NCBI RefSeq assembly: GCF_015169395.1 | Contig: NZ_CP063458.1 | Span: 1,302,001 to 1,366,000 of the forward strand | DNA from: Humisphaera borealis | Lineage (GTDB): Bacteria > Planctomycetota > Phycisphaerae > Tepidisphaerales > Tepidisphaeraceae | Length of the DNA stretch: 64,000 nt | Reading direction: 5' to 3' | Shown here: positions 10,888 through 53,420 of the stretch, one piece after another | How the letters are laid out: each line of letters starts with the position of its first letter | Position numbering within the stretch: the stretch's first letter is position 1 | Program-made: the position numbers and the translations under genes | The notes under the pieces: model-generated | What the model was told of the DNA's origin: nothing | Seen by the model: the letters and a program-made list of their open reading frames with translations, nothing else | Databases searched by the model: none

Positions 10888-11619
10888 TCACCGTGTCCAC
10901 GGCGGCATCAGCCGGGCCACTTCGCTTCCCAACCGTTCGACGGCCAGGTTGGCGTGGGCCCCAAGACGTTTGAGGGCGGCCACGCGTCGCGGGTCTGCCA
11001 ACAGATAGGCGGCCAGCTTCAGAGGCTTCGGCCGGCCGAGGTCATTGACGAGTGACAGCACGCGCGGATCGATCGCGTCGCCGGCGGTGTCGCTGATGGC
11101 GCGGAGGTGGACGAATGGCACGCCCGCCGATCGCGCCAGCGCCGCAACCAGATCCCCTTCCATATCCACCGCGACAGCGCCGGTGCGCCTAAACAGCGCG
11201 GCCTTGTCGGCCGGTGTCGCGACTGGCTGGGGAGAGGTCCAGATTCGACCGGCGACGGCGGAGGACTGCGCGGCGATAGCGGTGATGTCGTCCGTGGAGT
11301 GAACGTCGCGCCTAGAGTGGACGTCGCGCACGGGCTGCATGTACTGCGGGCCGCGGTCGGCACTTGTCGCGGGTATGTCCAGGACCAGGTCGCCGACCCG
11401 TAAAGCCGGATCGAGCCCGCCGGCCAGGCCGGCGAGGACGACCAGAGTCGTGGACGGGTCGAGTACCCGTGGGAGGTGCACCGCGCGCACGCCGATCGCC
11501 GAAAGTTCCCAGTCGAACGCCCGGGCGGCACCCGAGTCAAAAGCGCGGGTCAGCGCGTGCCGCACGGCACGGCGTTCCATGTCGATCGCCGTGAAAATCT
11601 GTAGCCGGGGACGCGTCAT
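10888..11619 (-). CDS. hpnG: Hopanoid-associated phosphorylase HpnG (nucleoside phosphorylase family)
   Basis: A 243-residue protein of the purine/uridine phosphorylase superfamily. The motifs are LAGLAGGLDPALRVGDLVL (phosphate and nucleoside pocket region), AVDMEGDLVA and RAISDTAGD, the aspartate-containing loop of the family. Known HpnG enzymes remove adenine from adenosylhopane to give ribosylhopane, acting after HpnH. Here hpnH lies 800 bases away on the other strand, which supports the assignment. An in-frame GTG at 11637 is an alternative start; neither start has a clear Shine-Dalgarno. A general MTA/SAH-nucleosidase-like role is the alternative. Confidence 0.8.
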   Translation of the reverse strand: MTRPRLQIFTAIDMERRAVRHALTRAFDSGAARAFDWELSAIGVRAVHLPRVLDPSTTLVVLAGLAGGLDPALRVGDLVLDIPATSADRGPQYMQPVRDVHSRRDVHSTDDITAIAAQSSAVAGRIWTSPQPVATPADKAALFRRTGAVAVDMEGDLVAALARSAGVPFVHLRAISDTAGDAIDPRVLSLVNDLGRPKPLKLAAYLLADPRRVAALKRLGAHANLAVERLGSEVARLMPPWTR

Positions 11620-11740
11620 GAGCGCGGCATTTACCACTTGACCAATTGGGATGAATAGAACATAATACTAACAGATTGTATGGTGACGTCGGAACATGTC
11701 AAGCGCCGTGTGGCGCGTTTCCGACGCAGCATGAGCCCGG

Positions 11741-12370
11741 TTGCAGAGTTCGCCGGGTTCGTTCGACAGGACGGCTCGGGTTCGTTCGGCGAAAGGACTT
11801 CTCGGATTCGTTTGGCAAAGAGACGTCGATCTGGTGCCACGGGTCGCCGGTACTCCGGAGACCCGTGTCCTGGCTCGACTGGCGCACGAGTCTGCGGGAT
11901 ACCGCCGACTCGTGGCACCGACAATCTCGGGTTCGTTCGGCAGGATGGCTCGGGTTCGTTCGGCGAAGTGACGTGGATCTGGTGCCACGGGTCGCCGGTG
12001 CTCCGGAGACCCGTGTCTTGGCTCGACTCGCGCACGAGTCTGCGGCGTACCGCCGACTCGTGGCACCGACAATCTCGGGTTCGTTCGGCAGGACTTCTTG
12101 GGTTCGTTCGGCGAAGAGACGTGGATCTGGTGCCACGGGTCGCCGGTACTCCGGAGACCCGTGTCTTGGCTTGACTCGCGCACGAGTCTGCGGCGTACCG
12201 CCGACTCGTGGCACCGGCAATCTCGGGTTCGTTTGGCAAAGAGACGTCGATCTGGTGCCACGGGTCGCCGGTACCCCGGAGACCCGTGTCTTGGCGCGAC
12301 TCGCGCACGAGTCTGCGGCGTACCGCCGACTCGCGGCACCGACAATCTCGGGTTCGTTCGGCGGAACGCG
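11741..12370. repeat. Tandem array of four 87-bp cloverleaf-forming repeats
   Basis: Four copies at 11833-11919, 11981-12067, 12129-12215 and 12254-12340, each exactly 87 bases. Starts are spaced 148, 148 and 125 bases. Each unit has an outer stem GGTGCCACG / CGTGGCACC and two inner hairpins of 13-bp arms with 4-base loops. Spacers carry one or two copies of GGGTTCGTTCGGC. The array fills most of the 800-bp gap between hpnG and hpnH. Open frames on both strands through it are by-products of the repeat. A fifth unit lies at 53243-53329. Confidence 0.92.
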
Positions 12371-12441: not shown

Positions 12442-13569
12442 ATGGGCGTACCCGTCTCGCAAATGTGGACCGTCGCGACGTATGTGCTGAAGCAGAAGCT
12501 GCTTCGCCGCCGTCGCTACCCGCTCGTGCTCATGCTCGAGCCGCTGTTCCGCTGCAATCTGGCCTGTGCCGGTTGCGGCAAGATCCAGTACCCGGCCCAC
12601 ATTCTGAAGAAGGATCTCTCGCCAGAACAATGCTTTAAGGCGGTTGATGAATGCGGGGCGCCGATGGTCAGCATTCCCGGCGGCGAGCCGTTGCTGCACC
12701 CGAAAATCAAGGAGATCGTCGAGGGCCTGGTCGCCCGCAAGAAGTACATCTATCTGTGCACCAACGCTTTGCTGCTGAAAGAGAAGATCGATCTCTTTAC
12801 GCCGAGCAAATACCTGACCTTCAGTGTTCACTTGGACGGGCAGCGCGAGCATCATGATTTCGCCGTCTGCCGGGAAGGCGGATACGACGTCGCGGTGGAG
12901 GGGATCAAGGAAGCGGTCAAACGTGGCTTCCGCGTCACCACCAACAGCACCCTCTTCGACGGTGCCGACGCCAACAGCGTGCGGGCATTCTTTGATGAGA
13001 CCATGGCGCTGGGCGTCGAAGGGATGATGCTTTCGCCGGGCTACAGCTACGACAAGGCGCCCGACCAGAAGCACTTCCTGGGCAAGGCCCGCACCAAGCG
13101 GCTGTTCAGCAAGATCCTCTCGAACCGCAGCAAGAAGTGGGTCTTCAATCAGAGCCCGCTGTTCCTCGAATACCTGATGGGCAAGCGGCACTACACCTGC
13201 ACGCCCTGGGGTATGCCGACGTACAACGTGTTCGGCTGGCAGAAGCCGTGCTACCTGCTGCAGGATGGCTACGCCGACACGTTCGCCGAACTAATGGAAG
13301 AGACCGAGTGGGAGCGCTACGGCACCGAGAGCGGCAACCGCAAGTGTGCCAACTGCATGGTGCACAGCGGCTACGAAGCCAGTGCCGTCAACGACACGTT
13401 CGGCTCGGTACGGGGGTTCCTCGCGACGGTCCGTGCGGTGCTCTTCGGCGGTGCGTACAAGAACGACGAAGCGCTGGCGGCACTGAACGACAAGCCGGAT
13501 TCGGGGCCCCTGGTGCAGTTGAAGATCACGCGAGCGAGTAAGAACGAGCGCGAGACGGTCGAGGTGTAG
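12442..13569 (+). CDS. hpnH: Adenosyl-hopene transferase HpnH (radical SAM)
   Basis: A 375-residue radical SAM enzyme. The [4Fe-4S] cysteines are C38, C42 and C45 (CNLACAGC), followed by SIPGGEPLLHP. A C-terminal cysteine-containing region includes YTCTPWGMPTYNVFGWQKPC and KCANCMVHSGYEA, typical of HpnH. The enzyme joins the 5'-deoxyadenosyl group to diploptene, the first step of extended (bacteriohopanepolyol) hopanoids. Its neighbours are hpnG and shc. Length fits the family. The ATG directly follows an AT-rich stretch without a clear Shine-Dalgarno. Confidence 0.95.
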   Translation: MGVPVSQMWTVATYVLKQKLLRRRRYPLVLMLEPLFRCNLACAGCGKIQYPAHILKKDLSPEQCFKAVDECGAPMVSIPGGEPLLHPKIKEIVEGLVARKKYIYLCTNALLLKEKIDLFTPSKYLTFSVHLDGQREHHDFAVCREGGYDVAVEGIKEAVKRGFRVTTNSTLFDGADANSVRAFFDETMALGVEGMMLSPGYSYDKAPDQKHFLGKARTKRLFSKILSNRSKKWVFNQSPLFLEYLMGKRHYTCTPWGMPTYNVFGWQKPCYLLQDGYADTFAELMEETEWERYGTESGNRKCANCMVHSGYEASAVNDTFGSVRGFLATVRAVLFGGAYKNDEALAALNDKPDSGPLVQLKITRASKNERETVEV

Positions 13570-53036: not shown

Positions 53037-53420
53037 ATGCCCGACACGGCATGTCCCTTTCACACTCTGCCAAACGAACCCAAGACCGACTTCGCCAAAC
53101 GATGGACTTCCCCCCAAATAGTGGGCGCGCCGAACGAAGGCCATAATGGCCAACGCAAGGAGTGTCCCAATGAGCAAGAAGCATCCGAACAACGGCAACC
53201 CGTCGAGCAACCCGAGATTGCCGAACGAACCCAAGATCGCGTGGTGCCACGGGTCGGCGGTACCCCGCAGACCCGTGCGCGGACCGACCGTCGGCACGGG
53301 TCTCCGGCGTACCGGCGACCTGTGGCACCAGATCGACCTCACTTCGCTGAACGAACCCGACATTGCCGAACGAACCCAAGGTGGCCGAACGAACCCGAGC
53401 GTCGGCCATCGAGCCTGTCA
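53037..53420. repeat. 87-bp cloverleaf repeat, fifth copy, with AACGAACCC spacer motifs
   Basis: The unit 53243-53329 is exactly 87 bases, like the four at 11.8-12.3 kb, with the same outer stem (GGTGCCAC / GTGGCACC, C-A interruption tolerated) and two hairpins. By its flanks (AACGAACCC, reverse of GGGTTCGTT) it points the other way. Spacer motifs recur from about 53060 to 53400. The 675-base gap 52967-53642 holds this and no gene I can support. Confidence 0.85.

Follow-up and report, generated by a model that had tools for sequence, protein, structure and literature searches.

A short two-hairpin repeat of Humisphaera borealis, very probably a REPIN with a tag of its own and unlike arms

The REPINs of Pseudomonas fluorescens SBW25, in the excerpted account of PMC3116915, comprise the groups GI-GIII, in which two inverted REPs enclose a variable spacer, and they are accompanied by RAYT genes with related REPs on their flanks. 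Ordered tandem clusters occur there as well, the largest holding four REPINs together with their flanks, and the same paper proposes that RAYTs read a clover fold of the element and not the hairpin, the reader being a RAYT dimer in the legend to its Figure S11. As far as the excerpts of PMC3733652 go, REPs of the GTAG and CGTC super-families are short tagged hairpins arranged in head-to-head dimers, and the preference for heterodimers in many REP families has no obvious explanation, SbcCD protection having been suggested. The partial text of PMC6006769 places the class 3 TnpA-Y1 REPtrons mainly in Planctomycetes and Acidobacteria and reports CnGA as the foot of their hairpins. Finally, the neisserial NIMEs, with dRS3 and RS sequences, comprise according to the available part of PMC3898611 about 700 short-repeat copies per genome, which form intergenic arrays in which they alternate with longer repeats of several families.

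The DNA analysed here, a stretch of 64 kb from Humisphaera borealis (the window), contains five repeat units of 87 bases each, four in tandem on the plus strand (11833-12340) and one more, far from these, on the minus strand (53243-53329), exactly as a preceding sequence-only reading had listed them. Both sites lie in arrays of a short motif, and the features concerned are the following (bit scores refer to the covariance model R1 described below).

10888-11637, minus strand: gene 5' of array 1, phosphorylase superfamily (PF01048)
11755-12362, plus strand: directional array 1, nine GGGTTCGTTYGGC-like motifs (at most two mismatches to GGGTTCGTTCGGC), all on one strand, around the four tandem units
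11833-11919, plus strand: probable REPIN copy 1, 87 bp, consisting of tag GGTGCCAC, hairpin A, variable loop, hairpin B and tag (97.4 bits)
11981-12067, plus strand: probable REPIN copy 2, 87 bp (98.8 bits)
12129-12215, plus strand: probable REPIN copy 3, 87 bp (102 bits)
12254-12340, plus strand: probable REPIN copy 4, 87 bp (93.9 bits)
12442-13569, plus strand: gene 3' of array 1, radical SAM and DUF3463
53069-53396, minus strand: directional array 2, six motifs (at most two mismatches), all on one strand, around copy 5
53243-53329, minus strand: probable REPIN copy 5, within array 2 (91.1 bits)

The gene 5' of array 1 is presumably a hopanoid-associated phosphorylase, and the one 3' of it we take to be HpnH-like.

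The family to which the unit belongs had been left unnamed. In our view it is very probably a REPIN, that is, a non-autonomous mobile element of miniature size in which two REP hairpins stand in inverted orientation, and it would belong to a RAYT system that has GGTGSCA and not GTAG as its tag. The tag GGTGCCAC stands at both outer ends of the unit, at the feet of two inverted, highly conserved REPs that flank a variable spacer, and each arm is itself a hairpin, the left one reading CACGGGTC-GCCGG-TACT-CCGGA-GACCCGTG and the right one, read on the opposite strand, being of a B type with the core GGCGG...CCGCA. All five units fold far more stably than their dinucleotide shuffles (z from -5.5 to -8.6, with none of 200 shuffles equal), and folding is strong on either strand.

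In its general kind, a hairpin pair such as REP transposases of bacteria disperse, such an element is already known; this one is set apart by its own tag, by mismatched arms that keep a clover possible, and by its place in strictly one-directional mosaic arrays. Compared with the SBW25 REPINs, as excerpted (PMC3116915), it has the same inverted conserved REPs, variable spacer, tens of intergenic copies and tandem clusters, but it differs in its tag (GGTGCCAC/GGTGSCA as opposed to a GTAG-type tag), in the compensated core swaps between its arms and the clover backed by covariation, and in that many copies lie in directional motif arrays and no exact partner RAYT was found. Short tagged hairpins, inverted dimers and a preference for unlike arms likewise recall the GTAG and CGTC REPs of the excerpts of PMC3733652, yet neither of these tags is at the hairpin foot here, where GGTGCCAC stands instead, and the RAYT loci tested show no excess of GTAG. 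With the class 3 REPtrons, as far as the partial text of PMC6006769 describes them, the system shares the phylum and RAYT-like genes with atypical flanking hairpins, whereas the foot is GGTGSCA here and CnGA there. A literature search whose scope left out most subscription papers returned no paper that describes a GGTGSCA tag or GGGTTCGTTYGGC arrays; for CGAACGAACCC it gave no relevant match, a Salmonella CRISPR typing paper that contains this sequence being judged irrelevant.

How widely the unit is dispersed was determined with R1, which was built from 37 copies and run on the own genome (G000; 7.19 Mb, one contig). Among the matches listed there are 71 distinct places, 56 of which score at least 60 bits. 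The lengths of these 56 copies cluster, with 39 at 87-89 bases and 16 at exactly 87; the strict equality of length, on the other hand, holds for the five units of the window and widens to 80-100 bases across the genome. Among the matches listed for 100 relatives, the element is abundant in four (G002, G003, G016 and G022), all of other genera of the same family, and one further genome of the same class gave weak matches only. A search of named genomes yielded at least 80 loci among the matches listed, all of them in Humisphaera sp. or Phycisphaerales assemblies.

The 56 copies of the own genome comprise 25 inside arrays and 31 solo copies, the latter defined as having no called array within 150 bp. 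Twenty-two solo copies lie between tandem genes, 6 between convergent genes and 1 between divergent genes, and only 2 of the 31 are within called genes (calls were made with an in-house hexamer script, not a standard gene finder); between tandem genes, 12 copies have the same orientation as the genes and 10 the opposite one. Such a placement, together with random orientation, is as expected of mobile DNA. Could the copies instead be mere passengers of the GGGTTCGTTYGGC arrays, spread by recombination between arrays and not mobile themselves? All 25 in-array copies are indeed oriented as the motif, and the stretches that separate motif and element resemble each other from array to array. However, this reading is largely refuted by the 31 solo copies, which have unrelated flanks, and it also conflicts with the presence of the element in four other genera when the array pattern was seen in no other genome searched; we consider it very improbable.

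One copy (2123747-2123833) sits in frame inside an ORF of 908 aa, which we assume to encode a U32-type peptidase and whose homologues are without the element: R1 gave no match at any of the 21 remaining U32 loci. Between two anchors the own gene has a linker of 105 aa, as compared to 56-98 aa in 16 homologues (five of the 22 U32 loci, being partial, were left out), and this linker shrinks to 76 aa once the 29 codons of the element are subtracted. The second intragenic copy (6714842), located in an apparent 3' extension of an ORF, is weak evidence. High sequence conservation and moderate copy number, as found here, might equally mark a site that stays in place and serves regulation or protein binding (a nucleoid or topology site, say), but we give this hardly any credence: the family-restricted distribution, the copy inside a protein gene with element-free homologues, the variable loop and the related hairpins that flank RAYT genes (see below) all fit mobile DNA better.

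As to the fold, the sequence-only reading had drawn a cloverleaf with a 9-bp outer stem and two 13-position hairpins. These elements overlap in their bases and cannot form simultaneously; a coherent clover does exist, and in the version backed by covariation an outer stem of 5 bp is combined with two hairpins, each of 12 pairs with one conserved mismatch. Its competitor is a single arm-to-arm hairpin of 35 bp. Both folds were assessed on alignment A3, which holds 37 copies from five genomes (28 own and 9 from relatives). In the clover, 98.4% of cells are paired and 9 of 29 pairs show two-sided changes (27 cells), and none of 500 shuffles is as high on any of five measures, a count which, like the unlike-arm counts given below, overstates independence, as array copies are in part clonal and each REPIN is passed on as a whole. 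The long hairpin has 92.0% paired and two-sided changes in 4 pairs (9 cells), and on A3 its covariation does not rise above that of the shuffles, 82, 410, 33, 412 and 64 of 500 reaching it on the five measures. This supports the view that the two hairpins of the clover, and not the long hairpin, are what is kept, and it sustains the earlier proposal that structure is selected or required for spread; the paired change named in that proposal, an A-T pair of hairpin 2 in the tandem copies that is G-C in the distant copy, is confirmed. Judged by folding energy only, however, it is the long hairpin that comes out as more stable, and this weakens any simple appeal to equilibrium in favour of the clover. 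The covariation fits the clover-recognition proposal of PMC3116915, as excerpted, and bears as evidence on a question that the REPIN literature, in the parts available, leaves open, namely whether clover or long hairpin is the relevant form.

Conservation of structure might also be accounted for if the unit acted as RNA, that is, as a hairpin at the 3' end of transcripts which either makes them more stable or terminates transcription. The strong folding would agree with such a role, and so would the location of the solo copies, mostly tens of bases from genes, in 22 tandem and 6 convergent but just one divergent of 31 settings. However, the even split of orientations relative to transcribed tandem genes argues against a strand-specific RNA role, 25 of the 56 copies lie in arrays, many of which are upstream of genes, the covariation is for two hairpins and not for the more stable single one, and Rfam gave no match above gathering score in the 64-kb window. 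An RNA function therefore seems unlikely to us.

The two arms of a unit differ in their inner stem cores in 46 of 50 parsed copies of the own genome, and the same is true, counting the best-scoring copies among the matches listed, of 16/17 copies in G002, 6/6 in G003 and 6/6 in G022; G016 is the exception, with different arms in 2/19 and the same core in 17/19. These counts leave out copies with unparsable or odd-length cores, which amount to 6 of 56 in G000 and, among the relatives' 53 copies, to 1 of 20 in G016, 3 of 20 in G002, 1 of 7 in G003 and 0 of 6 in G022. The different-arm rule thus holds in four of five genomes, and the same-core units of G016 indicate that unlike arms are not required. 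The core pairs are characteristic of lineages (GCCGG/GGCGG in G000, GCGG/GGCG in G002, G003 and G022), and core swaps are compensated inside each stem. With DNA parameters, median energies of the arm-to-arm duplex are -30 to -41 kcal/mol in unlike-arm units, as compared to about -48 to -50 kcal/mol in like-arm units (two groups with more than one copy), whereas the two hairpins alone are equally stable in unlike- and like-arm units within a genome. The design thereby narrows the gap between clover and long hairpin, which bears on why REP dimers often have unlike arms, and since copies with unlike arms and copies with like arms (for instance those at 2694850 and 5440990) exist in nature, the matter is directly testable with one enzyme.

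If the unit is a REPIN, a transposase of the RAYT type would be expected to be associated with it. The own genome has 11 Y1_Tnp matches, and all nine of these that were scanned against NCBIfam match NF047646, the model for REP-associated tyrosine transposases, with two, L114 and L119, above its cut-off of 80 bits (L119, 88.6 bits).

1060208-1060777 of the own genome, minus strand: RAYT gene L119 (NF047646)

On both sides of L119 there are inverted hairpins, GGTGCCAT[GGGCTGCGGTACTCCGCTGCCC], at 26-48 bases on the upstream side and at 36-58 bases on the downstream side, and these inverted GGTGCCATGGGCTGCGGTACTCCGCTGCCC hairpins have the same tag and the same CGGTACTCCG core as the 87-bp unit and a different outer stem. 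Homologues of L119 are present in 30 of 101 genomes (own included), and GGTGSCA upstream combined with TGSCACC downstream was found at 15 of the 30 loci versus 0/27, 0/26 and 0/22 in control windows shifted by 400, 700 and 1000 bases. GTAG upstream with CTAC downstream stays at background, at 1/30 loci versus 2/27, 5/26 and 1/22 in the shifted windows. The tag count used all 30 loci; at 24 of them the hairpin flanks were inspected. In G022, one of the genomes with the 87-bp family, the L119 homologue has two dimers on each side, scoring 43.6-50.4 bits by R1, the homologue in G092 is flanked by GGTGGCATGGGTCACGGTACTCCGTGACCC, and three RAYTs have flanks that also share the loop core with the unit. 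Sequence likeness of this kind makes kinship of the 87-bp unit with the L119 RAYT clade well supported.

A linked RAYT had been proposed as a check, and the outcome is divided: some RAYTs do have flanking hairpins that agree with the unit in tag and loop core, but none flanked by exactly the 87-bp arms was found in the own genome or at 99 element-bearing loci of relatives, so that mobilisation by a RAYT is something we infer. Just one of these 99 loci has a Y1 gene, about 0.9 kb off among unrelated neighbours (G016), and at E 1e-15 an L119-clade RAYT is absent from G002, G003 and G016, all of which have many copies of the element. The Y1 gene at 2122123-2122767 was considered as a partner, as a copy lies about 1 kb away; that copy is inside the next gene, however, and among the relatives' homologous loci only that of G016 has a copy nearby, with different neighbours, for which reasons the candidate was rejected.

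Starting from the observed anatomy, dispersal and covariation and from the tag shared with RAYT loci, and by analogy with IS200/IS605 and RAYT systems, we envisage that the unit would fold as a clover in single-stranded DNA, that a dimeric HUH (Y1) transposase from the local RAYT clade would recognise both tagged hairpins, and that the unit would be excised and then re-inserted, mostly between genes. Compensated swaps in the stem cores would allow each hairpin to fold while weakening the competing arm-to-arm hairpin. RAYT recognition, the single-stranded intermediate and current mobility are all carried over from those systems. On this basis, REP/RAYT systems would extend to a planctomycete clade with its own tag.

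Some RAYT-related loci may be mentioned in their own right. L113 (own C1:3416068-3416292, minus strand) is a REP transposase domain embedded, without a break of frame, in a DinG/YoaA-type helicase ORF of 851 aa, in which the helicase model matches in two stretches, and its flanks are CACGGGCTTCCAGCCCGTG / CACGGGCTGGAAGCCCGTG hairpins. L120 (own C1:930440-930601, plus strand) is a REP transposase domain within one open frame of 591 aa overall, whose part preceding the domain looks, we presume, ThiE-like. L110 and L111 (own C1:4158951-4160170) are near-identical tandem RAYT-like genes about 3.6 kb from a directional array. In G092, a genome with 10 RAYT matches, three matches follow one another at exact 1578-bp steps at C1:2614660-2619410, with a fourth on the opposite strand, the steps representing tandem amplification of the whole RAYT unit.

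The arrays in which the units of the window lie are a separate feature, strictly directional and deserving a study of its own. All spacers between the tandem copies carry at least one GGGTTCGTTYGGC, as the earlier reading had seen, and the window has 15 matches to GGTTCGTTCGGC with at most one mismatch where 0.9 are expected. The start-to-start spacing of the tandem copies (148, 148 and 125), with one or two motifs in every spacer, points to duplication of a 148-bp block, composed of the element and two motifs, inside the mosaic array; in the proposed sequence of events this would be a later step. Copy 5 has a 16-nt flank in common with the tandem copies and hence looks like a copied array block, not like an independent insertion.

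Throughout the genome GGTTCGTTCGGC has 707 matches at up to one mismatch, as compared to 83 for a reversed-letter control. In a survey of 1.652 Mb, picked around known sites, 273 exact GGGTTCGTTYGGC motifs were counted, 259 of them intergenic (intergenic DNA makes up 21% of the sequence) and 3 isolated, and neighbouring exact motifs are on the same strand in 217 of 217 pairs. None of 58 arrays, 53 from this survey and 5 from 20 stretches not selected for content, is mixed in direction. Motif spacings cluster at 24, 19 and 23, and the spacer letters are diverse; of 142 inserts longer than 20 nt, 94 fall into 8 multi-copy repeat families, many of them palindromic, and strong insert matches between arrays have the same orientation in 358 of 360 pairs. 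The latter, together with the flank of copy 5, suggests that REPIN-bearing blocks were probably copied between arrays. In 38 of 48 arrays the distance to the next gene is greater at the 5' end than at the 3' end (medians 419 and 141), and the 5'-side gene is divergent in 33 of 48. Motif pairs at array spacing occur in 1 of 392 genomes of the phylum, which is the own genome, and on no contig of a named genome collection, from which the own record may be left out.

In their construction the GGGTTCGTTYGGC arrays resemble the NIMEs of the available part of PMC3898611, with about 700 short repeats that alternate between genes with longer repeat units of several families. But dRS3 is palindromic (ATTCCC N8 GGGAAT), whereas the GGGTTCGTTYGGC motif is non-palindromic and runs one way in each array, with spacing peaks at 19 and 24. 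The uniform direction of all 58 arrays, these spacing peaks, the co-oriented inserts, the greater 5' distances and the confinement to one genome might be read as signs of orientation-locked cassette arrays, in which the 13-bp motif would serve as a site of recombination or capture, and modules of palindromic build, the REPIN included, would be added or exchanged one way, with growth from a defined 5' side. We regard this as unlikely; no recombinase was identified for the arrays, and a simpler account of these facts is copying through homologous recombination. A function linked to neighbouring genes was dropped, as a Pfam scan of the 48 5'-side genes found nothing recurrent beyond DDE transposases (three) and two families with two members each.

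At the 5' side of many arrays there is a near-palindromic GTACAATATGCTAACATTGTAC-like sequence that resembles a promoter or operator of the divergent gene, and others have a common GATCGGT...GATCG...CCGG leader that ends in GATCGATCACTT. Lastly, further dimeric palindrome families occur as array inserts, such as TGTGGCATGGGCATG...CATGCCAC, and these look like more REPIN families.
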